Position numbers and translations under genes: made by a program
Notes under the pieces: generated by a model
The model's input: only the letters and a program-made list of their open reading frames with translations
Told to the model about the DNA's origin: nothing
Databases searched by the model: none
Source: Desulfobacteraceae bacterium
Lineage (GTDB): Bacteria > Desulfobacterota > DSM-4660 > Desulfatiglandales > Desulfatiglandaceae
DNA length: 40,182 bases
NCBI GenBank assembly: GCA_030613055.1
Contig: JAUWMR010000035.1
Span: 1-40,182, forward strand
Direction of reading: 5' to 3'
Shown: piece after piece, positions 830 to 39,559 of the stretch
Numbering within the stretch: the stretch's first letter is position 1
How the letters are laid out: every line of letters starts with the position of its first letter

Positions 830-1015
830 AATGGGGACAATCCTCGGGAGAAACCACCGTACTGGGGTGAAATCCGGTTTTGCATTTATTTAACTTGTAT
901 GACAATAACAAAAAACTATGGGGATATCTGCAATAAGGTCAGAAGGTAACAACATTACCAATCGCATAGTGGGGGTCATTATGCACATTTAAAAGTCCAT
1001 TCAGGAAGGAAAATT

Positions 1016-2237: not shown

Positions 2238-4028
2238 ATGAGATTTCCTTACGGTGTGTGCGATTTTAATAAGGTCATAACAGAAAAATTGTTTTACTGC
2301 GACCGGACAGACCGTATCTCCACGATAGAGGATACAGGATATTTTCTTCTTTTTCTGCGTCCAAGAAGATTCGGCAAAAGCCTTTTGCTTTCCATGCTTG
2401 AAAACTATTATGACCTGGCCCGGAAAGACCGGTTTCAGGATATCTTTGGTCATCTCCTGATCGGTAAAAACCCCACCCCCTTGCACAATCAATACTTTAT
2501 TCTTAAATGGGATTTTTCCTGTGTTGATCCTTCAGGAAGCGCTAAAGATATTAAAAGAGCATTTCATGACCATATCAATTCCTGCATTAAGGCATTTGAG
2601 CTATATTATAAAGATTATTTGTTCTGTGATATTGAAGTAGATCCTCATAACGCCATCAATTCAATCAAATCCCTTCTGTCCATAACCCGCAAGTCCGGAC
2701 ATCCTGTTTATCTATTAATAGACGAATATGACAACTTTGCCAATGAAGTTATGATGGGAGTGCGCAGAAAAAAAGAGGACATTTACGAAGCGCTTGTGTA
2801 CGAGGAAGGACCGCTAAAGACACTGTTTAAAGCAGTCAAGGCATCGACAGACGGCTCAGGTTTTGACCGGAGCTTTATTACAGGTGTATCACCGGTTGCA
2901 ATGAGCGATATTACAAGCGGTTATAATATTGCAGAAAACATATATCTTAATCCGGTCTTTAATGATTTATGCGGCTTTCATGAAGCAGAAATAGAAAAAG
3001 CCCTAAAAACGATAGCAAAAAAATGCGGGTTTAAAGAAAAGGACGCTGCGGAAGCGCTTGACATCATGCGTACTTATTATAACGGATATGCATTTTCCGT
3101 GGATGCAAAAGAGCTTGTTTATAATGTTTATAATCCAACTCTGGCAATCTATTTTATGAAGGCATTCTCCAGCGCCTGCAAATATCCGAGAGAAATGCTC
3201 GATTCCAATCTTGCAGCAGACGAGGCAAAGCTTCAGTATATATCTCAGATACCAAAAGGAAGTCAGTTGCTTCTTGATTTGATGAAAAAGGATAATCATC
3301 TCGTTATCTCCAGGCTGGCTACCCGTTTCGGAATTCAACAGATGGTCACGGATCAGAGCAAAGATTTTGCTTTTATCGCCTCTTTTCTCTATTATTTTGG
3401 CATATTGACAATAGATAGCGAAACAGATGAAGGCGAATTAATCCTGAGAGTACCCAATTTGACAACACGGGGTCCTTATGTGGAACGGATACGACAAACA
3501 CTCCTGCCCGACCCGTCTGACAGAGATGACGGGGTTTTTGCCGCCAGGCAGCTTTATGCCAAAGGCGATATGGAGCCGCTTTGCGAGTTTGTTGAACAGA
3601 GATTTTTTAAAGTATTCCATAACCGCGACTACCGATGGGCCAATGAGCTCACTGTTAAAACAGCTTTTTTGACACTTCTTTATAATGACATTCTCTATAT
3701 TATCGATTCAGAAAAAGATATAAGCCGCACTTACGCTGATTTAATTATGATTATCCGGCCTGATATGAGACGGTTCAAAATCTTTGATATCCTCATTGAG
3801 TTCAAGTATGTAAGTCTTAAAGAAGCTGGTTTGACCGGCCAAAAGGCAAAGGAATTAAGCGCAGAAAAGCTGCAATCTATTCCTTTAATGCAAGCCAGGA
3901 TGGAAGAGGCAAAAAAGCAGGTCATCCAATACGGCAATGCGCTTGAGCAGAAGTACGATAACCTACGGCTTAAAAGGTATGCCGTAGTGTCACTCGGTTT
4001 TGAGAGATTGTGGTGGGTAGAAATATAG
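2238..4028 (+). CDS. AAA-ATPase-like protein with C-terminal PD-(D/E)XK nuclease domain (copy 1)
   Basis: A 596-residue protein of the AAA-ATPase-like/PDDEXK_9 (older DUF1703) type. The N-terminal half has the family opening FPYGVCDFNKV, a Walker A-like loop RPRRFGKSLLLSML (about 41-54) and a Walker B-like VYLLIDEYDN. The C-terminal quarter has ADLIMIIRP followed by FDILIEFKYV, the D...ExK pattern of a PD-(D/E)XK nuclease fold. The internal ATG at 2238 is preferred over 2220: AAGGA (2225-2229) sits eight bases before it, and the paralogue at 37527-39308 begins at the same position. Biological role is unknown; the family often occurs as many variable copies per genome. It stands alone, followed at once by a palindromic element. 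Confidence 0.88.
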   Translation: MRFPYGVCDFNKVITEKLFYCDRTDRISTIEDTGYFLLFLRPRRFGKSLLLSMLENYYDLARKDRFQDIFGHLLIGKNPTPLHNQYFILKWDFSCVDPSGSAKDIKRAFHDHINSCIKAFELYYKDYLFCDIEVDPHNAINSIKSLLSITRKSGHPVYLLIDEYDNFANEVMMGVRRKKEDIYEALVYEEGPLKTLFKAVKASTDGSGFDRSFITGVSPVAMSDITSGYNIAENIYLNPVFNDLCGFHEAEIEKALKTIAKKCGFKEKDAAEALDIMRTYYNGYAFSVDAKELVYNVYNPTLAIYFMKAFSSACKYPREMLDSNLAADEAKLQYISQIPKGSQLLLDLMKKDNHLVISRLATRFGIQQMVTDQSKDFAFIASFLYYFGILTIDSETDEGELILRVPNLTTRGPYVERIRQTLLPDPSDRDDGVFAARQLYAKGDMEPLCEFVEQRFFKVFHNRDYRWANELTVKTAFLTLLYNDILYIIDSEKDISRTYADLIMIIRPDMRRFKIFDILIEFKYVSLKEAGLTGQKAKELSAEKLQSIPLMQARMEEAKKQVIQYGNALEQKYDNLRLKRYAVVSLGFERLWWVEI

Positions 4029-26367: not shown

Positions 26368-26412
26368 TAATGCCTCCTCTATGGATTTGTATCTTCTGTC
26401 TTTTTTGATTCA

Positions 26413-26541
26413 TTAAAAAAGATCACTGTCTCCCATTGTATAATACATATTATGTTCAAAAAATTGTGGGGAAAATGCGCTGTCAAATATCTTAAATGTA
26501 GGGGCCAAATTATCAGGCTCATTCATGACTTCAAATCCTAT
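26413..26541 (-). pseudogene. Orphan C-terminal fragment of a methyltransferase-GNAT paralogue
   Basis: The last 42 codons of a gene closely related to the intact one at 27733-29439. It reads GFEVMNEPDNLAPTFKIFD then SAFSPQFFEHNMYYTMGDSD and ends LF-stop, against GFEAMNQPDNLAPGFRIFD then SRFSVEFFEQNYYYTMGDSD in the intact copy. Similarity continues about a dozen bases past the stop and ends abruptly near 26541. It has no start codon or ribosome-binding site. The rest of the gap 26368-26744 shows nothing coding. A tandem duplicate of the gene has therefore been almost wholly deleted, with a toxin-antitoxin pair now between fragment and intact copy. Confidence 0.85.
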
Positions 26542-26744: not shown

Positions 26745-27152
26745 TTAACCTATCAAAGGAGTATCGAAACCTGCTTGTCGAAAATGGTCATCAAAAGTCA
26801 AGGCATACCTTACTCGCCTTTTTTTCATAACTACAAATGAATAGCAATCAACGATTCCCCATGTCTTGTCTTTGCGACGCTTAAACAGCGAAAACGCTCT
26901 TGACATTCCCTCGGAAGCAAATGGAATAACCGTGGTGTTGCTGTCTGTCTGAATTTTTTCGATAACAGTCACGACCGTTTTACGGTACGGCGGCTTTGAT
27001 AGCGAATTAGCCAATTCAACCAAAATGAGATCCGTAGTTAAAAAAGGGCCGGGATATAATTCAGACGCTTCTATGGCGGCGGCGTGGAACCGATCCTTTT
27101 TCCTTATAAGGGCGATAAGATAGCCTGTATCAAGAAAAATAATGCGTTTCAT
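26745..27152 (-). CDS. VapC-like PIN-domain toxin
   Basis: A 135-residue PIN-domain protein, expected to cut RNA. The acidic residues are in place: Asp8 (IFLDTGYLIAL), Glu46 (DLILVELANSL), Asp101 (WGIVDCYSFVVM) and Asp120 or Asp121 (LTFDDHFRQAGF). Length is normal for VapC. The gene overlaps its presumed antitoxin by four bases (ATGA). The pair lies between a gene remnant and an intact relative of that remnant, which fits insertion or retention at a rearranged site. Confidence 0.85.
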   Translation of the reverse strand: MKRIIFLDTGYLIALIRKKDRFHAAAIEASELYPGPFLTTDLILVELANSLSKPPYRKTVVTVIEKIQTDSNTTVIPFASEGMSRAFSLFKRRKDKTWGIVDCYSFVVMKKRRVRYALTFDDHFRQAGFDTPLIG

Positions 27153-27370
27153 TTCTTAGGTGTTCCATATAGATAATGGTCATGCTGCTTCGCTAAATCG
27201 ACAGGAAAATCATCCTCAATCGCGCATTCTGCCAAATCTGAAAGAAGCGAAGACGGCTTCTGCCGGCTTTTCATCTCTTTTTTTTTCTTCCTTACGAATC
27301 CTTCCACTTCAACAAGCATGGAAGGCGGTAACTTAGCAATTTCGTTTTTCAGAGATTCTAATTTATTCAT
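27149..27370 (-). CDS. DUF2281-like antitoxin
   Basis: A 73-residue protein. The N-terminal KNEIAKLPPSMLVEVEGFV (about 8-26) is the helix pattern seen in DUF2281/VapB-like antitoxins, and the charged C-terminal half (CAIEDDFPVDLAKQHDHYLYG) would wrap the toxin. GGAGG lies close before the ATG. It is directly upstream of, and overlaps, the PIN toxin gene. A palindromic repeat lies about 60 bases upstream and the promoter must be between. Role inferred from family and pairing. Confidence 0.8.
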   Translation of the reverse strand: MNKLESLKNEIAKLPPSMLVEVEGFVRKKKKEMKSRQKPSSLLSDLAECAIEDDFPVDLAKQHDHYLYGTPKK

Positions 27371-27568: not shown

Positions 27569-27732
27569 ACTTAAGTTCATGCGTAATGGACGTTGTTACC
27601 TTCTGAACTTATGCCAGATATTCGCTTATGATTTCCGGATTGTCATACCGGTTAAACAGAAGCAAGACTCAATTGCTAATTGTAAATTTTACTCCAGCTA
27701 CTTCTGAGGTTAAAACCATCTTTTTTGATTCG

Positions 27733-29439
27733 TTAAAAGAGATCACTGTCTCCCATGGTATAGTAATAATTCTGTTCAAAGAACTCCACAGAAAATCTAC
27801 TGTCAAAAATTCTAAATCCAGGAGCCAGATTGTCAGGCTGATTCATGGCTTCAAATCCTGTATCCTGCAAAACAGTTGTCCACCAATCAGGTACTGGAGA
27901 AAACCATCCTTCAATCCTGATTATATCCTGATAAAAATGCTTAATTAGACAATCGAGCATGAAGTTAACGGCATGAACGTATTTTTTGTCAAACAGAGCA
28001 TCTCCCCATAACAATACGTTGCCTTTCGTCGAAAAGACACTCCAGCCCACAAGCCTCCCAAAGCGCTTAACTGCAAAAACCTTGTGAATATTATCAGGGC
28101 AATCAAGGTATCTCCATTTAAGATAAGAAGATTTTCTTTTTATAAGCATACCATAATCATTGCACACTTTTTCAAAAAATAGATCATATTCCAGGCTAAT
28201 ATCTGATACCCTTTCAACAGAGAAACCTGAGATGAGTCTTCTAATCGCACTTAGGGATTTTAGACTTGTTTTATTCAGGTCTATCACATGGTATGGAACA
28301 TGCGAGGTGTACTCGTGCTGCAGGAAACGTTCTCCAAATTTTCTGATGTTCCCGGTATTGTAGCCAATATTAAAAGGAACATTGTCAACGCGAAACTTAT
28401 TGTAAAAATATATCCCTGTCCTGGCTAATACGCTTGTTTTACCCAAACCAAGATTTCTAAAATCGGGATTGGTCATTGTGTCTGCGATGTGAAACGACAA
28501 AAAATCCTTAATGTCTCCGACTAAAGAACGGAATGGCACAGGATATCCACAGAAATGTCCTGCTAAAGCCCTATCCTCCGTGACTGCTTCGGCAATTTTG
28601 TGTGTGCCGAAAGGATTGTCCCTGAATTTCCAGCGCCAGTGTTCAATCGTTCTGTTAGTGTTGAAAACCTTATTGAACATTTCCAGGATATTCCCTTCGT
28701 CGCCATCACTATATGCTCGTATAAAAATTTTGTCCTTTTTGGCAATAATGATGTCGTATCCCATACTATTGTTGCCGTACCATTTTTCTTGCGATTTCCA
28801 ACCATTCAAAAAATATTCAAGCCTTTCAGCAGCGTCTTTTTTATCTACGGATGAAACTATTCGCTCAAAATTTTCCGTGAATCTTTGTATTACATTGTCA
28901 CATGTCTTTATGACATTTTTTCCTATTTTTTCATTACCGGTAATACGAAATCCGTTTTCAAAAAGTCCTGTGACAACGTCTTCAAAAAGATGAACTGCTG
29001 TTTCTTTTTTTATTGATTTATCCTGGCATATTTCATCTCCGACAATGACTAAGCCTTTAGGTTCTAAAAGAAACCTGGCTTTTTTAAAAACACCGTTCAA
29101 CGGATTGAGGTATTGAAGAGATTCCTGGAATAAAATGACATCATATTTTTTTGACATAAAATCAGAGTCGTTATTGTCAAGAAAGCCTGCTACATGAAAG
29201 TCTATGTTACCTTTACCGTAATTCTTTTTGGCATAATCGATCAATTCTTTTGAAGGAGCTATCGCAGTAACATGATAGCCCTTTTCCGACAGATTATATG
29301 CAGAAAATCCAAGTCCGCAGCCAACATCCAGTATTGTTGCTGGCGGATCAGGGAAATGGACAAACAGGCGCTCAAACATACGTTCCTGCGCTTCTTCCAG
29401 GGTTAGATTCGGGAAATTTTCATGTCTCCCACGATCCAT
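27733..29439 (-). CDS. Methyltransferase-GNAT acyltransferase fusion protein
   Basis: A protein of about 568 residues. The N-terminal class I SAM methyltransferase has motif I ILDVGCGLGFSAYNLSEKG (36-54) and a following KKYDVILFQESLQYL. After about residue 235 a GNAT-like domain starts (IFIRAYSDGDEGNILEMF), with the diagnostic NPDFRNLGLGKTSVLAR acyl-CoA loop and later LKWRYLDCPDNIHKVFAV. It probably methylates and acylates glycan sugars. The ATG at 29439 gives a 37-base overlap with the preceding gene. An upstream start at 29523 would overlap it by 121 bases, and the ATG at 29379 would avoid overlap. A fragment of a paralogue lies at 26413-26541. Confidence 0.82.
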   Translation of the reverse strand: MDRGRHENFPNLTLEEAQERMFERLFVHFPDPPATILDVGCGLGFSAYNLSEKGYHVTAIAPSKELIDYAKKNYGKGNIDFHVAGFLDNNDSDFMSKKYDVILFQESLQYLNPLNGVFKKARFLLEPKGLVIVGDEICQDKSIKKETAVHLFEDVVTGLFENGFRITGNEKIGKNVIKTCDNVIQRFTENFERIVSSVDKKDAAERLEYFLNGWKSQEKWYGNNSMGYDIIIAKKDKIFIRAYSDGDEGNILEMFNKVFNTNRTIEHWRWKFRDNPFGTHKIAEAVTEDRALAGHFCGYPVPFRSLVGDIKDFLSFHIADTMTNPDFRNLGLGKTSVLARTGIYFYNKFRVDNVPFNIGYNTGNIRKFGERFLQHEYTSHVPYHVIDLNKTSLKSLSAIRRLISGFSVERVSDISLEYDLFFEKVCNDYGMLIKRKSSYLKWRYLDCPDNIHKVFAVKRFGRLVGWSVFSTKGNVLLWGDALFDKKYVHAVNFMLDCLIKHFYQDIIRIEGWFSPVPDWWTTVLQDTGFEAMNQPDNLAPGFRIFDSRFSVEFFEQNYYYTMGDSDLF

Positions 29440-30536
29440 GACACCACTTGCGAGTACCTCCCAAGTTCCTTCGGGCTTCCCAGTCTCCCGAAATATTGTC
29501 CAGGAGCCAGCATAGCCCAGCAATCTTCCGGAAAATCCATGCAGGGACCCTTTCCAAACCGACCCGCGGAAGGCACAAAATCAGGATTAGGGCTCAGCTC
29601 AAAGAGCCAGCCCTTGCGCAGCTTTTCCGGTACCTCCAGGACAAAAGGGCTGGTGAAATCAGGTACTCTGAGTTGATTTTTGTCCGGCCGTGGAGGGGCC
29701 TTAAAATGATCCAGAATCTTTTTTACGCGAGATTTCCAACCCTTGCAATGTTTTTCCAAAAATATCCGGTGGGACCTGGCCATAAGCGCTCTTTTCTCCT
29801 GCCAGTTCTGTTGTCCGCACTGGTCATAGTGATGAATCACCTCAGCCCTGGGTTCGATGATAAGACTATAGCCTGCCTTTCTTAACCGGACAAAAAGATC
29901 TGTGTCTTCAAAATAGAGAAAGAACTGTGGATCAAACAGCCCGCCAGCCTTCCGGACAGCTTCCTGCTTCAAAAGAACGTGGCCGCCGGACAAGTTGTTT
30001 ACCTTTACCGGCTCATCAGCGCGCCATATCTTTATGGAATAACGCCGCCAGAAAGCGCTCACAATCCTGTCGATGTTTGCCCCGGGGCCCCATGCGCTCA
30101 AAACAGGCTTGAATATGAATAAATTCGGCGGATAGGATGGTGGAAGGTAAAACTTAGATCCTTCATCCCAGAAAATCCTTGGCCCGACAGCGGCAACCTT
30201 CTTATCAGATAACAGCGTCTTCTGCAAACGAGCCAGGCAACCAGGAAACAATCTGGCATCTGGATTGAGAAGAAGGATGAGTTCCCATGGAAACTCTTCA
30301 AAAGCATGATTGCAGGCGCGTCCAAAGCCAATATTTTCCGGGTTCACCCGTAACACCACGCCTGACGGGAGATTTAAACGTAATCTTTCTGCCTCATCCT
30401 TGTCCTCGCTATTATCTACTACCACCACATGCACCGGACCAATGGATACGGAATCGAGCACCGACTTAACTGCCCGCAAGGTCAGGCCTGCGACCTTGTA
30501 GTTGACTATGATGGCGAGAGTCCTTAAAGGAGCCAT
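29403..30536 (-). CDS. GT2 family glycosyltransferase (WbbL/rhamnosyltransferase-like)
   Basis: A 377-residue GT-A glycosyltransferase. LAIIVNYKVAGLTLRAVKS, VVVVDNSEDKDEAE, the ENIGFGRACNHAF donor loop and metal motif LLLNPDARLF (NPDA 91-94) are typical. LSGGHVLLKQEAVRKAGG, FFLYFEDTDLFVRL and IIEPRAEVIHHYDQCG complete the family signature, including the ED catalytic region. The last 80 residues, rich in Trp, Phe and Pro, form an extension of unknown role. GGAAG lies ten bases before the ATG. It shares the operon with the methyltransferase genes on both sides. Confidence 0.9.
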   Translation of the reverse strand: MAPLRTLAIIVNYKVAGLTLRAVKSVLDSVSIGPVHVVVVDNSEDKDEAERLRLNLPSGVVLRVNPENIGFGRACNHAFEEFPWELILLLNPDARLFPGCLARLQKTLLSDKKVAAVGPRIFWDEGSKFYLPPSYPPNLFIFKPVLSAWGPGANIDRIVSAFWRRYSIKIWRADEPVKVNNLSGGHVLLKQEAVRKAGGLFDPQFFLYFEDTDLFVRLRKAGYSLIIEPRAEVIHHYDQCGQQNWQEKRALMARSHRIFLEKHCKGWKSRVKKILDHFKAPPRPDKNQLRVPDFTSPFVLEVPEKLRKGWLFELSPNPDFVPSAGRFGKGPCMDFPEDCWAMLAPGQYFGRLGSPKELGRYSQVVSWIVGDMKISRI

Positions 30537-37445: not shown

Positions 37446-37520
37446 TTTATTCTGATAACTATTTACCCATAGGACATCCCAGATGCACATAAGTTCACAA
37501 AGTAACACCGTCCCCCTGTT
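37446..37520. repeat. 75-bp direct repeat, copy A (3' side of ATPase cassette)
   Basis: This 75-base block (beginning TTTATTCTGATAACTATTTA, ending GTCCCCCTGTT) recurs at 39485-39559 in the same orientation with a single difference (C at 37508, A at 39547). It lies six bases after the end of the AAA-ATPase-like gene, so the gene is bracketed by the two copies. Confidence 0.95.
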
Positions 37521-37526
37521 TATCCA

Positions 37527-39308
37527 CTAAATCTTTCTAAAACATACTCTTTCAAACCCCAGAGCCACCACCACAAATTTCTGTAATCTCAGATTTCCAT
37601 ATTGTTGTTCAAGTTTTTTTCCGTATTCTTTTACCTGTTTTTCACCATCTTTTATCTGCGTTGCAATCTCAGGAATCAGGCAAAGCTCATCATCAGTCAG
37701 TTCCGCTGCCTGGTCAGCGCTCATTCCAGCGTCCTTGAGCTTTACAAATTTAAACTCAATCAAAACATCAAATACTTTGCCATATCTCTTATCCGGCCTG
37801 ATTATCATGGTTAGATCGGCATATCGGCGGTCAATCTCAGTTTCAGAGTCCATAATATAGATAATATCGTTGTAAAGCAGGGTCAAAAAAGCGGTCTTTA
37901 ATGTCAGTTCATTTGCCCACCTGTAATCGCGGTTATGAAAAACCTTGAAATATCTTTCCTCCATGAACCTGCACAGAGGAGACATCTCTCCTTTTTGATA
38001 AACCAGTTTTGCAGCTTCCCTGCCATCATCTCTGTCTTCTGGTTCCGGCAGAAGCATTTTCTGAATCCGCTCCACATAAAGGCTTTTCATAACCAGGTTG
38101 GGAACTTTTAAGATCACCTGCAAATCTTCTGTGTCGCCTGCAATGGTCAGCACTCCAAAATAATAGAGAAAAGAGACCAGAAATGTATTATCCTTAGATT
38201 TGTCCGTCAACATATCTTTAATGCCAAAACGATCTTCAATATCTGATATGACAACTTGTTGATCTTTTTGCACCAGATTCATTAAAAGATCTCTTCCCCT
38301 GGAAATTTGAGCAATATACTCCAGCTTTGATTCATCCACGGCAAGGTTTGAATCCAGCATTTTTCTCGGATAGCTGCATGTTTTTTCAAACTGTTCAAAA
38401 AAATATAAGCAAAGAGTTGGATTGTAAATATGCTCATCTGCTGCATGGGAAAAAGTGTAACCATTGTAATAAGTCTGCATCAAATTTACAGCTTCCCGGA
38501 TCTTCTCCTTTTCAAAACCGCATTTATCAACAATCTCTTTGAGCACATCCTCAATTTCATTCTGCTTAAACCCGCACAGATCATTAAACTCAGGCTCAAA
38601 ATAAATATTTTTTGCAATATTATACCCGCTTGTAATATCGCTCATAACAACAGGCGAAACCCCTGTTATAAAGACTCTGTCAAACATGGAACCTGAAGTT
38701 GAGGATTTTACAGCCTTGAAAAAAGTTCTTAAGGGGCCTTCGTCATGCACAAGAGCTTCATATCTGCCTTCAGAGCGCTGAACTCCCATCATAACTGTAT
38801 TGGCAAAATTATCATATTCATCTATGAGCAGATAAACCGGGTATGGGGTCATGCTGACAGAGGTAATAAGAGCTTTCATCGAAAAAAAGGCATCTTCCCG
38901 ATCAATTTCGATATCCGGCAGATCAAATCCTTTGTATTTATAAAACTTATAAAAACCGCTAATGCATGCACTAATATGATTAAACAGAGACTTTTTCACA
39001 TCTTCAGCGCTTCCGGTGGGATCAACACAGGAAAAATCAAATTTCAGAATAAAATATGAATTGCGCAAATCTGTAGGATTCTTCCCGATTTTTAAATTAC
39101 CAAAAATTGACTCGAACTCATCCTTTTTTGCCACATCATAATAATTTTCCAGCATTGAAAGAACAAGGCTTTTGCCAAAACGTCTCGGGCGGATGAATAA
39201 TTGAAAATCTGATTTTTCAAGCAGAGGTATTTTATCTGTTCTGTCACAGTAATAATAGCCCCGAGTATTAACCTTTTTAAAGTCGGATATACCATAGGGA
39301 AATTTCAT
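37527..39308 (-). CDS. AAA-ATPase-like protein with C-terminal PD-(D/E)XK nuclease domain (copy 2)
   Basis: A 593-residue paralogue of the protein encoded at 2238-4028, similar along its whole length. It has FPYGISDFKKVNTRGYYYCD at the start, Walker A-like RPRRFGKSLVLSML, Walker B-like VYLLIDEYDN, the shared MSDITSGYNIAKNIYFEPEF region, and the C-terminal nuclease-type ADLTMIIRP and FDVLIEFKFV (D...ExK). The ATG at 39308 is chosen over 39344 because GGAGG (39316-39320) sits seven bases before it and the paralogue starts at the same residue. The gene is enclosed by 75-bp direct repeats (37446-37520, 39485-39559), which suggests it moves or is lost as a unit. Molecular role unknown. Confidence 0.88.
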   Translation of the reverse strand: MKFPYGISDFKKVNTRGYYYCDRTDKIPLLEKSDFQLFIRPRRFGKSLVLSMLENYYDVAKKDEFESIFGNLKIGKNPTDLRNSYFILKFDFSCVDPTGSAEDVKKSLFNHISACISGFYKFYKYKGFDLPDIEIDREDAFFSMKALITSVSMTPYPVYLLIDEYDNFANTVMMGVQRSEGRYEALVHDEGPLRTFFKAVKSSTSGSMFDRVFITGVSPVVMSDITSGYNIAKNIYFEPEFNDLCGFKQNEIEDVLKEIVDKCGFEKEKIREAVNLMQTYYNGYTFSHAADEHIYNPTLCLYFFEQFEKTCSYPRKMLDSNLAVDESKLEYIAQISRGRDLLMNLVQKDQQVVISDIEDRFGIKDMLTDKSKDNTFLVSFLYYFGVLTIAGDTEDLQVILKVPNLVMKSLYVERIQKMLLPEPEDRDDGREAAKLVYQKGEMSPLCRFMEERYFKVFHNRDYRWANELTLKTAFLTLLYNDIIYIMDSETEIDRRYADLTMIIRPDKRYGKVFDVLIEFKFVKLKDAGMSADQAAELTDDELCLIPEIATQIKDGEKQVKEYGKKLEQQYGNLRLQKFVVVALGFERVCFRKI

Positions 39309-39315
39309 TATTACC

Positions 39316-39320
39316 CCTCC
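39316..39320 (-). promoter_or_regulatory. Ribosome-binding site that fixes the ATPase start
   Basis: GGAGG on the minus strand, seven bases before the ATG at 39308. It argues for the shorter start and against the in-frame ATG at 39344, which has no such site. Confidence 0.7.
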
Positions 39321-39484
39321 TCCCATATCCTTATTTTTTTCCAAAATTGTTCATTCTCTTTCCCGCATAAAGAAGTTCCCAAGGTCGCCATCTTAATTTT
39401 TATTTTTAATTATTGAGAGTGGTAAGGGACATATCCCCATAGTTTATTCTATTGTAGAAAACCACGCCCTCTGGGGATGGATTC

Positions 39485-39559
39485 TTTATTCTGATAACTA
39501 TTTACCCATAGGACATCCCAGATGCACATAAGTTCACAAAGTAACAACGTCCCCCTGTT
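39485..39559. repeat. 75-bp direct repeat, copy B (5' side of ATPase cassette)
   Basis: Second copy of the block at 37446-37520, 2039 bases away, identical except for one base. It starts four bases after the stop of the BACON-repeat gene on the minus strand. The intervening 39345-39484 is AT-rich and must hold the ATPase promoter. No clear hexamers were identified there. Confidence 0.95.

Follow-up and report, generated by a model that had tools for sequence, protein, structure and literature searches.

The two 75-bp direct repeats that bracket a DUF1703-type ATPase-nuclease gene on balance probably represent a scar left by an insertion-duplication of the ordinary kind, in which the gene was carried along as a passenger. 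We favor such a scar over a self-moving cassette since similar duplications flank unrelated genes in the same genome. The stretch of DNA analyzed here, called the window, is the entire contig C57 (40182 bases), which belongs to a draft assembly of 97 contigs. The repeats and the genes of the family are located in the window as follows:

37446-37520, minus strand: left copy of the 75-bp direct repeat, found by repeat search, lying after the gene in gene orientation
37527-39308, minus strand: DUF1703-type gene encoding 593 amino acids with intact motifs, PF09820 and PF08011, ATG at 39308, stop at 37527
39451-39484, minus strand: 34-bp REP-like motif (GAATCCATCCCCAGAGGGCGTGG...) in the 176-bp leader, with AGAATAAA on both sides
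39485-39559, minus strand: right copy of the 75-bp direct repeat, found by repeat search, lying before the gene in gene orientation
2238-4028, plus strand: second DUF1703-type gene of the genome, 60-61% identical

The repeat search confirmed the description given in an earlier note, i.e., two blocks in the same orientation that differ at one base (74/75 bases identical, sole mismatch A/C, spacing 2039), the left copy being located 6 bases from the stop codon of the DUF1703 gene. On the upstream side, 176 bases separate the ATG from the right copy. That nothing else is present between the blocks holds true for genes, as they enclose a single intact one, but not for the leader, which contains the REP-like motif. 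The full 75-bp block occurs at two sites in the whole 4.26-Mb draft genome, both in the window, and the reversed-sequence control of the repeat core resulted in zero genome matches; a 75-nt match with a single mismatch can therefore not be due to chance. Apart from the window’s own genome, the full-length block was found in none of the 148 genomes searched. The repeat folds no better than shuffled sequences (z about +0.8 to +0.9), and its interpretation as an Rfam RNA, a terminator or a folded site was rejected as it shows neither a match nor a stable fold. The left copy extended by 7 bp carries 7-bp inverted ends (AACAGGG...CCCTGTT). Direct repeats of such length and similarity allow RecA-type loss or duplication, so that the suggestion of the earlier note that the roughly 2-kb unit can be lost or duplicated by homologous recombination is justified.

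Comparable brackets were found around unrelated modules of the same genome. The control region encompassed 840 kb, i.e., 800 kb in stretches plus the window, and was searched for two-copy repeats of 35-400 bp with a spacing of 0.2-8 kb. This yielded 11 direct repeats versus 1 inverted repeat, several of the direct ones being internal to repetitive genes. Among 616 genes, 7 (the DUF1703 gene included) were flanked on each side, within 700 bp, by direct repeats of 45 bp or longer. One case is located in the window itself:

27719-27859, minus strand: tail of a methyltransferase gene (gene 27733-29523), comprising its last 42 codons and 14 bp
26399-26539, minus strand: second copy of this tail, 80% identical, beyond the antitoxin/PIN module
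27149-27370 and 26745-27152: antitoxin-like gene and PIN toxin, the module between the two tails

The two 141-bp tails differ at all three codon positions (7, 6, and 14 differences at positions one, two, and three), a pattern that also fits decay after duplication. On contig C84 (173220-174540; L166), a HEPN-like gene is followed by a RelBE-like pair and by a diverged copy of the HEPN tail (names assigned by eye); the tail copies comprise the last 30 or so codons (91/100 bp, 77% identical) with an in-frame length difference of 9 nt. On the same contig, a tail fragment of an SDR-like gene recurs (49 bp, 92%) past two AcnX-like genes (names by eye). In-frame or coding-type divergence of such brackets is expected if donor and recipient alleles are compared, an argument that cannot be applied to the repeat of the DUF1703 gene, which is non-coding and 99% identical. 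Besides these cases, contig C54 contains at ~94100-99250 (L185) a row of MNT-HEPN-like pairs and HicAB-like genes that looks cassette-like, its modules being separated by near-identical repeats of 50-138 bp containing TTTTTCGTGCTTTCGTGTTTTCGTGATCC.

For the DUF1703 gene, an insertion-duplication might have proceeded as follows. A small piece of DNA with the gene, its leader and a short region of homology to the target would have become integrated into the chromosome through recombination within this region, either via a single crossover of the circularized fragment or via homology-assisted illegitimate recombination, and the anchor stretch would thereby have been duplicated on both sides of the insert. 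The REP-like element may have been acquired later, on the inner side of one of the repeats, or may have arrived with the donor copy, and the present repeats could permit loss of the unit by RecA-type recombination. An anchor that is duplicated, in direct orientation and on both sides of the segment, is what we observe, while we infer that the segment is foreign, that a donor event took place, and in which direction and by which enzymes it proceeded.

Several known systems resemble this layout. In an integron gene cassette, one gene likewise lies between direct repeats about as long as attC. However, the window proteins scanned include no integrase, and the repeat, which does not fold, does not recur beside other cassettes; an integron cassette was rejected for want of both the folded attC site and the integrase. 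Target duplications of the usual transposons are far shorter than the 75-bp repeats, and an insertion sequence or transposon was rejected due to the length of the repeats and the lack of a transposase domain; the scanned window proteins contain no transposase, recombinase, or integrase domain. In E. coli, a duplication was found in 56/60 clones, measuring 109-950 bp in the 14 sequenced ones, and these duplications were attributed to a single crossover of a partly degraded, re-circularized molecule (PMC3240628). As proposed for the window, a foreign segment lies there between direct copies of a short homologous stretch, whereas the duplication in the window measures 75 bp and its donor event is presumed. 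For Vibrio T6SS immunity-gene arrays with displaced gene ends, homology-facilitated illegitimate recombination was proposed (PMC5361080). In these arrays of Vibrio cholerae, the module is placed beside its anchor and displaced 3′ remnants of the resident gene are found downstream of it, an arrangement also seen for the PIN and RelBE modules described here; in contrast, the duplication around the DUF1703 gene involves intergenic sequence with hardly any difference between the copies.

The enclosed gene belongs to a widespread family. In a profile search its product matched AAA-ATPase_like PF09820 (155.4 bits versus a cut-off of 26.1, E 2e-45), followed by the PDDEXK_9 nuclease PF08011 (29 bits versus a cut-off of 25.5, E 1e-6), each above the curated cut-off, and this architecture is known as DUF1703 (Knizewski 2007; PMC1913061). 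The Walker A motif R40PRRFGKS47, the Walker B motif D163EYD166 and, in the nuclease domain, D498 and E518xK520 do not vary among the 20 homologs compared, so that the assignment of an ATPase-like and a nuclease domain in the earlier note was right. The listed TTG start at 39344 appears less likely than the ATG at 39308, since homology between the copies begins at or just before the ATG. PADLOC and NCBIfam returned no match for the protein, which thus carries no defence annotation; no solved relative was found in the PDB and no viral relative in IMG/VR, and all matches in gut phage records and in six plasmid records are less than 60% identical. The predicted structure is of low confidence (mean pLDDT 60). 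The family is distributed sporadically, with 3/85 genomes of the order containing a match at E 1e-50, and homologs in other draft genomes show 80-87% nucleotide identity. In the window’s genome, the second copy at 2238-4028 has no flanking direct repeats, and a third match on another contig is weak and partial.

The repeat itself extends beyond the DUF1703 gene in the form of its 25-nt core, which matches six places in the genome, namely both copies, contigs C1 and C40 and two sites in the window:

27588-27612, minus strand: isolated match to the 25-nt core, adjoining the antitoxin/PIN module and the methyltransferase gene
933-957, plus strand: degenerate match with 3 mismatches, between a DUF3368 gene and a Uma2 gene

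The core is thus found at three or four further places beyond the flanking pair, at least two of which lie beside unrelated genes. As judged from its core, the repeat is thus a member of a sparse intergenic family that is not confined to DUF1703 genes. The REP-like motif directly abuts the right repeat copy on its inner side, and none is present beside the left copy. Its core is dispersed over a dozen or so places in the window’s genome. The dispersed motif corresponds to TAAAGAATCCACGCCCAGAGGACGTGG (window 39451-39484; L143-L156), and an AATAAA-like sequence is found on both sides of several of its copies.

Flanking repeats were analyzed for those 35 family copies whose flanks were sufficiently long on either side, including the second copy of the window. 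A direct flanking repeat of at least 45 bp is present in 3/35 of them, i.e., the window copy, L080 and L125, and long, non-simple flanking repeats are present in two (the window gene and L080). The flanking repeat of L080, a distant family copy in another genome, is 81 bp long and 85% identical and is unrelated in sequence to the 75-bp repeat. It is present twice and spans the site where the end of a cupin-like gene overlaps the start of an aminotransferase-like gene (names by eye), and its copies differ at codon positions 1 and 3 and never at position 2 (by eye), a divergence that looks more like that of functional alleles than like decay of a fresh duplicate. The geometry of L080 and the window copy is alike, with the repeat 183 and 176 bp before the ATG and 14 and 6 bp after the stop, respectively. 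Three further repeats were discarded as marks of the family: the 57-bp flanking repeat of L125 is a simple, dispersed sequence, the 343-bp repeat beside two family copies in genome G209 is dispersed with ~40 substantial copies and is not gene-specific, and the 190-bp palindromic repeat near family copies in genome G468 is dispersed as well. Excluding the window copy, flanking repeats were found for 2/34 family copies versus 6/615 other genes, which is not significant (Fisher p = 0.06), one of the two being the simple sequence at L125; any link of the family to flanking repeats would be a weak one. The repeat was rejected as a family mark, the other copies having either no repeat or, as in L080, an unrelated one. 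A joined-flank search, performed at L080 only and representing a weak test, revealed no comparable empty site in the family, and neither a circular form nor a sister strain was found, nor a donor or an uninserted recipient among the relatives examined. With regard to copy arrangement, L091 (2314-4086 and 4123 on) and L099 (4411-6189 and 6223 on) contain DUF1703 genes in head-to-tail tandems with spacers of 30-36 bp. In G468, the contigs L095, L096, and L103 end at a nearly identical point within DUF1703 copies, which suggests stretches common to the copies of that genome.

These data partly support the cassette proposed in the earlier note: the layout permits loss of the unit by homologous recombination, while the gene is more likely a passenger within a recombination scar. 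Against the repeats being the ends of a mobile cassette, other family copies, including that at 2238-4028, lack them, their core occurs at sites without a DUF1703 gene and unrelated modules are bracketed similarly. Nor does the block flank other DUF1703-type genes, as its full form occurs only here in the genome, and the idea that the enclosed protein acts on its own repeats gains no support, nothing indicating that they are recognized by the gene product.

Homology between DUF1703 copies is tightly confined to the ORF. In the clade of the window copy (41 pairs) it comprises the ORF and a median of 12 bp upstream, in a complete genome that contains ten or more paralogs (27 pairs) the ORF and a median of 40 bp upstream, and downstream of the stop the median pair shares no homology at all. 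In contrast, the apparently orthologous pair L099/L107 shares a flank of 3.2 kb at 83% identity. Taken alone, ORF-tight homology could suggest the movement of bare genes. However, the nearest neighbor of DUF1703 copies switches between successive 200-bp segments, which argues that recombination between the paralogs is strong, and segments in G209 are mostly 90-98% identical compared to 78-93% for whole genes. Recombination of this kind would keep the ORFs alike and leave the flanks unrelated, so that transposition need not be assumed, even though some initial dispersal of the genes must have happened. In G209 (L114-L123), the paralogs are spread around a complete 1.8-Mb chromosome, and the nine compared are strong mosaics of one another. 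The family, including its expansion in Cardinium cCpun, shares the domain order and the RPRRFGKS, DEYD, and D/ExK motifs, and cCpun likewise contains many mosaic paralogs with spread by HGT, for which recombination among the paralogs was reported (PMC6387759). The window copy differs in being placed between 75-bp direct repeats, and the term “direct repeat” is absent from the text of that study.

Alternatives to an insertion-duplication scar have to be weighed against these observations. A local tandem duplication of repeat, leader, and gene, followed by deletion of the second gene with its 75-bp start left behind, is conceivable but unlikely: head-to-tail copies do exist in L091 and L099, yet these tandems repeat the ORF and a short leader and not the 75-bp intergenic block, and no remnant of a second gene is present beyond the left repeat copy. 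We regard it as rather improbable that two sparse intergenic repeats flank the gene by chance or that a composite unit moves by recombination between them. The core matches at C1, C40, and window positions 27588 and 933 (degenerate), with zero in the control, and the 7-bp inverted ends would agree with this, whereas the other members are far more diverged, matching in the core only compared to 99% over 75 bp for the flanking pair, and the folding behavior of the repeat speaks against it as well. Short-read assemblies usually break at repeats. A mis-join of two loci across the 75-bp repeat is nevertheless very unlikely; although the window represents one complete contig out of 97 and its end lies ~620 bases beyond the right copy, the two copies are distinguished by a one-base difference and by the sequences that flank them.

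Finally, the DUF1703 protein might introduce widely spaced nicks and insert its own gene, creating target duplications of 75-81 bp, a scenario to which we assign hardly any probability. The similar geometry of the window copy and L080, the ORF-tight homology with its short upstream extension and the sporadic distribution in the order speak in its favor. However, such duplications are missing at other family copies, the L080 repeats diverge in a coding-like way, the ORF-tight homology is explained by recombination and mosaicism of the paralogs, and unrelated modules have similar brackets. It is thus most improbable that DUF1703 ATPase-nucleases promote the dispersal of the genes encoding them in units the size of an ORF, with such duplications as an occasional result; if true, DUF1703 would represent a class of mobile genes without a transposase.

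As a summary, interpreting the repeats as an insertion-duplication scar removes a false lead, namely that of a cassette defined by its repeats. It directs attention to a more general pattern in this draft genome, where toxin-antitoxin modules and a DUF1703 gene have a gene on one side and, on the other, a short and frequently diverged repetition of the neighboring sequence. In the absence of a recombinase, scars of this type could serve to date and trace the acquisition of genes. Moreover, since DUF1703 paralogs show ORF-tight and mosaic homology in two separate lineages, the recombination behavior of this family becomes testable.
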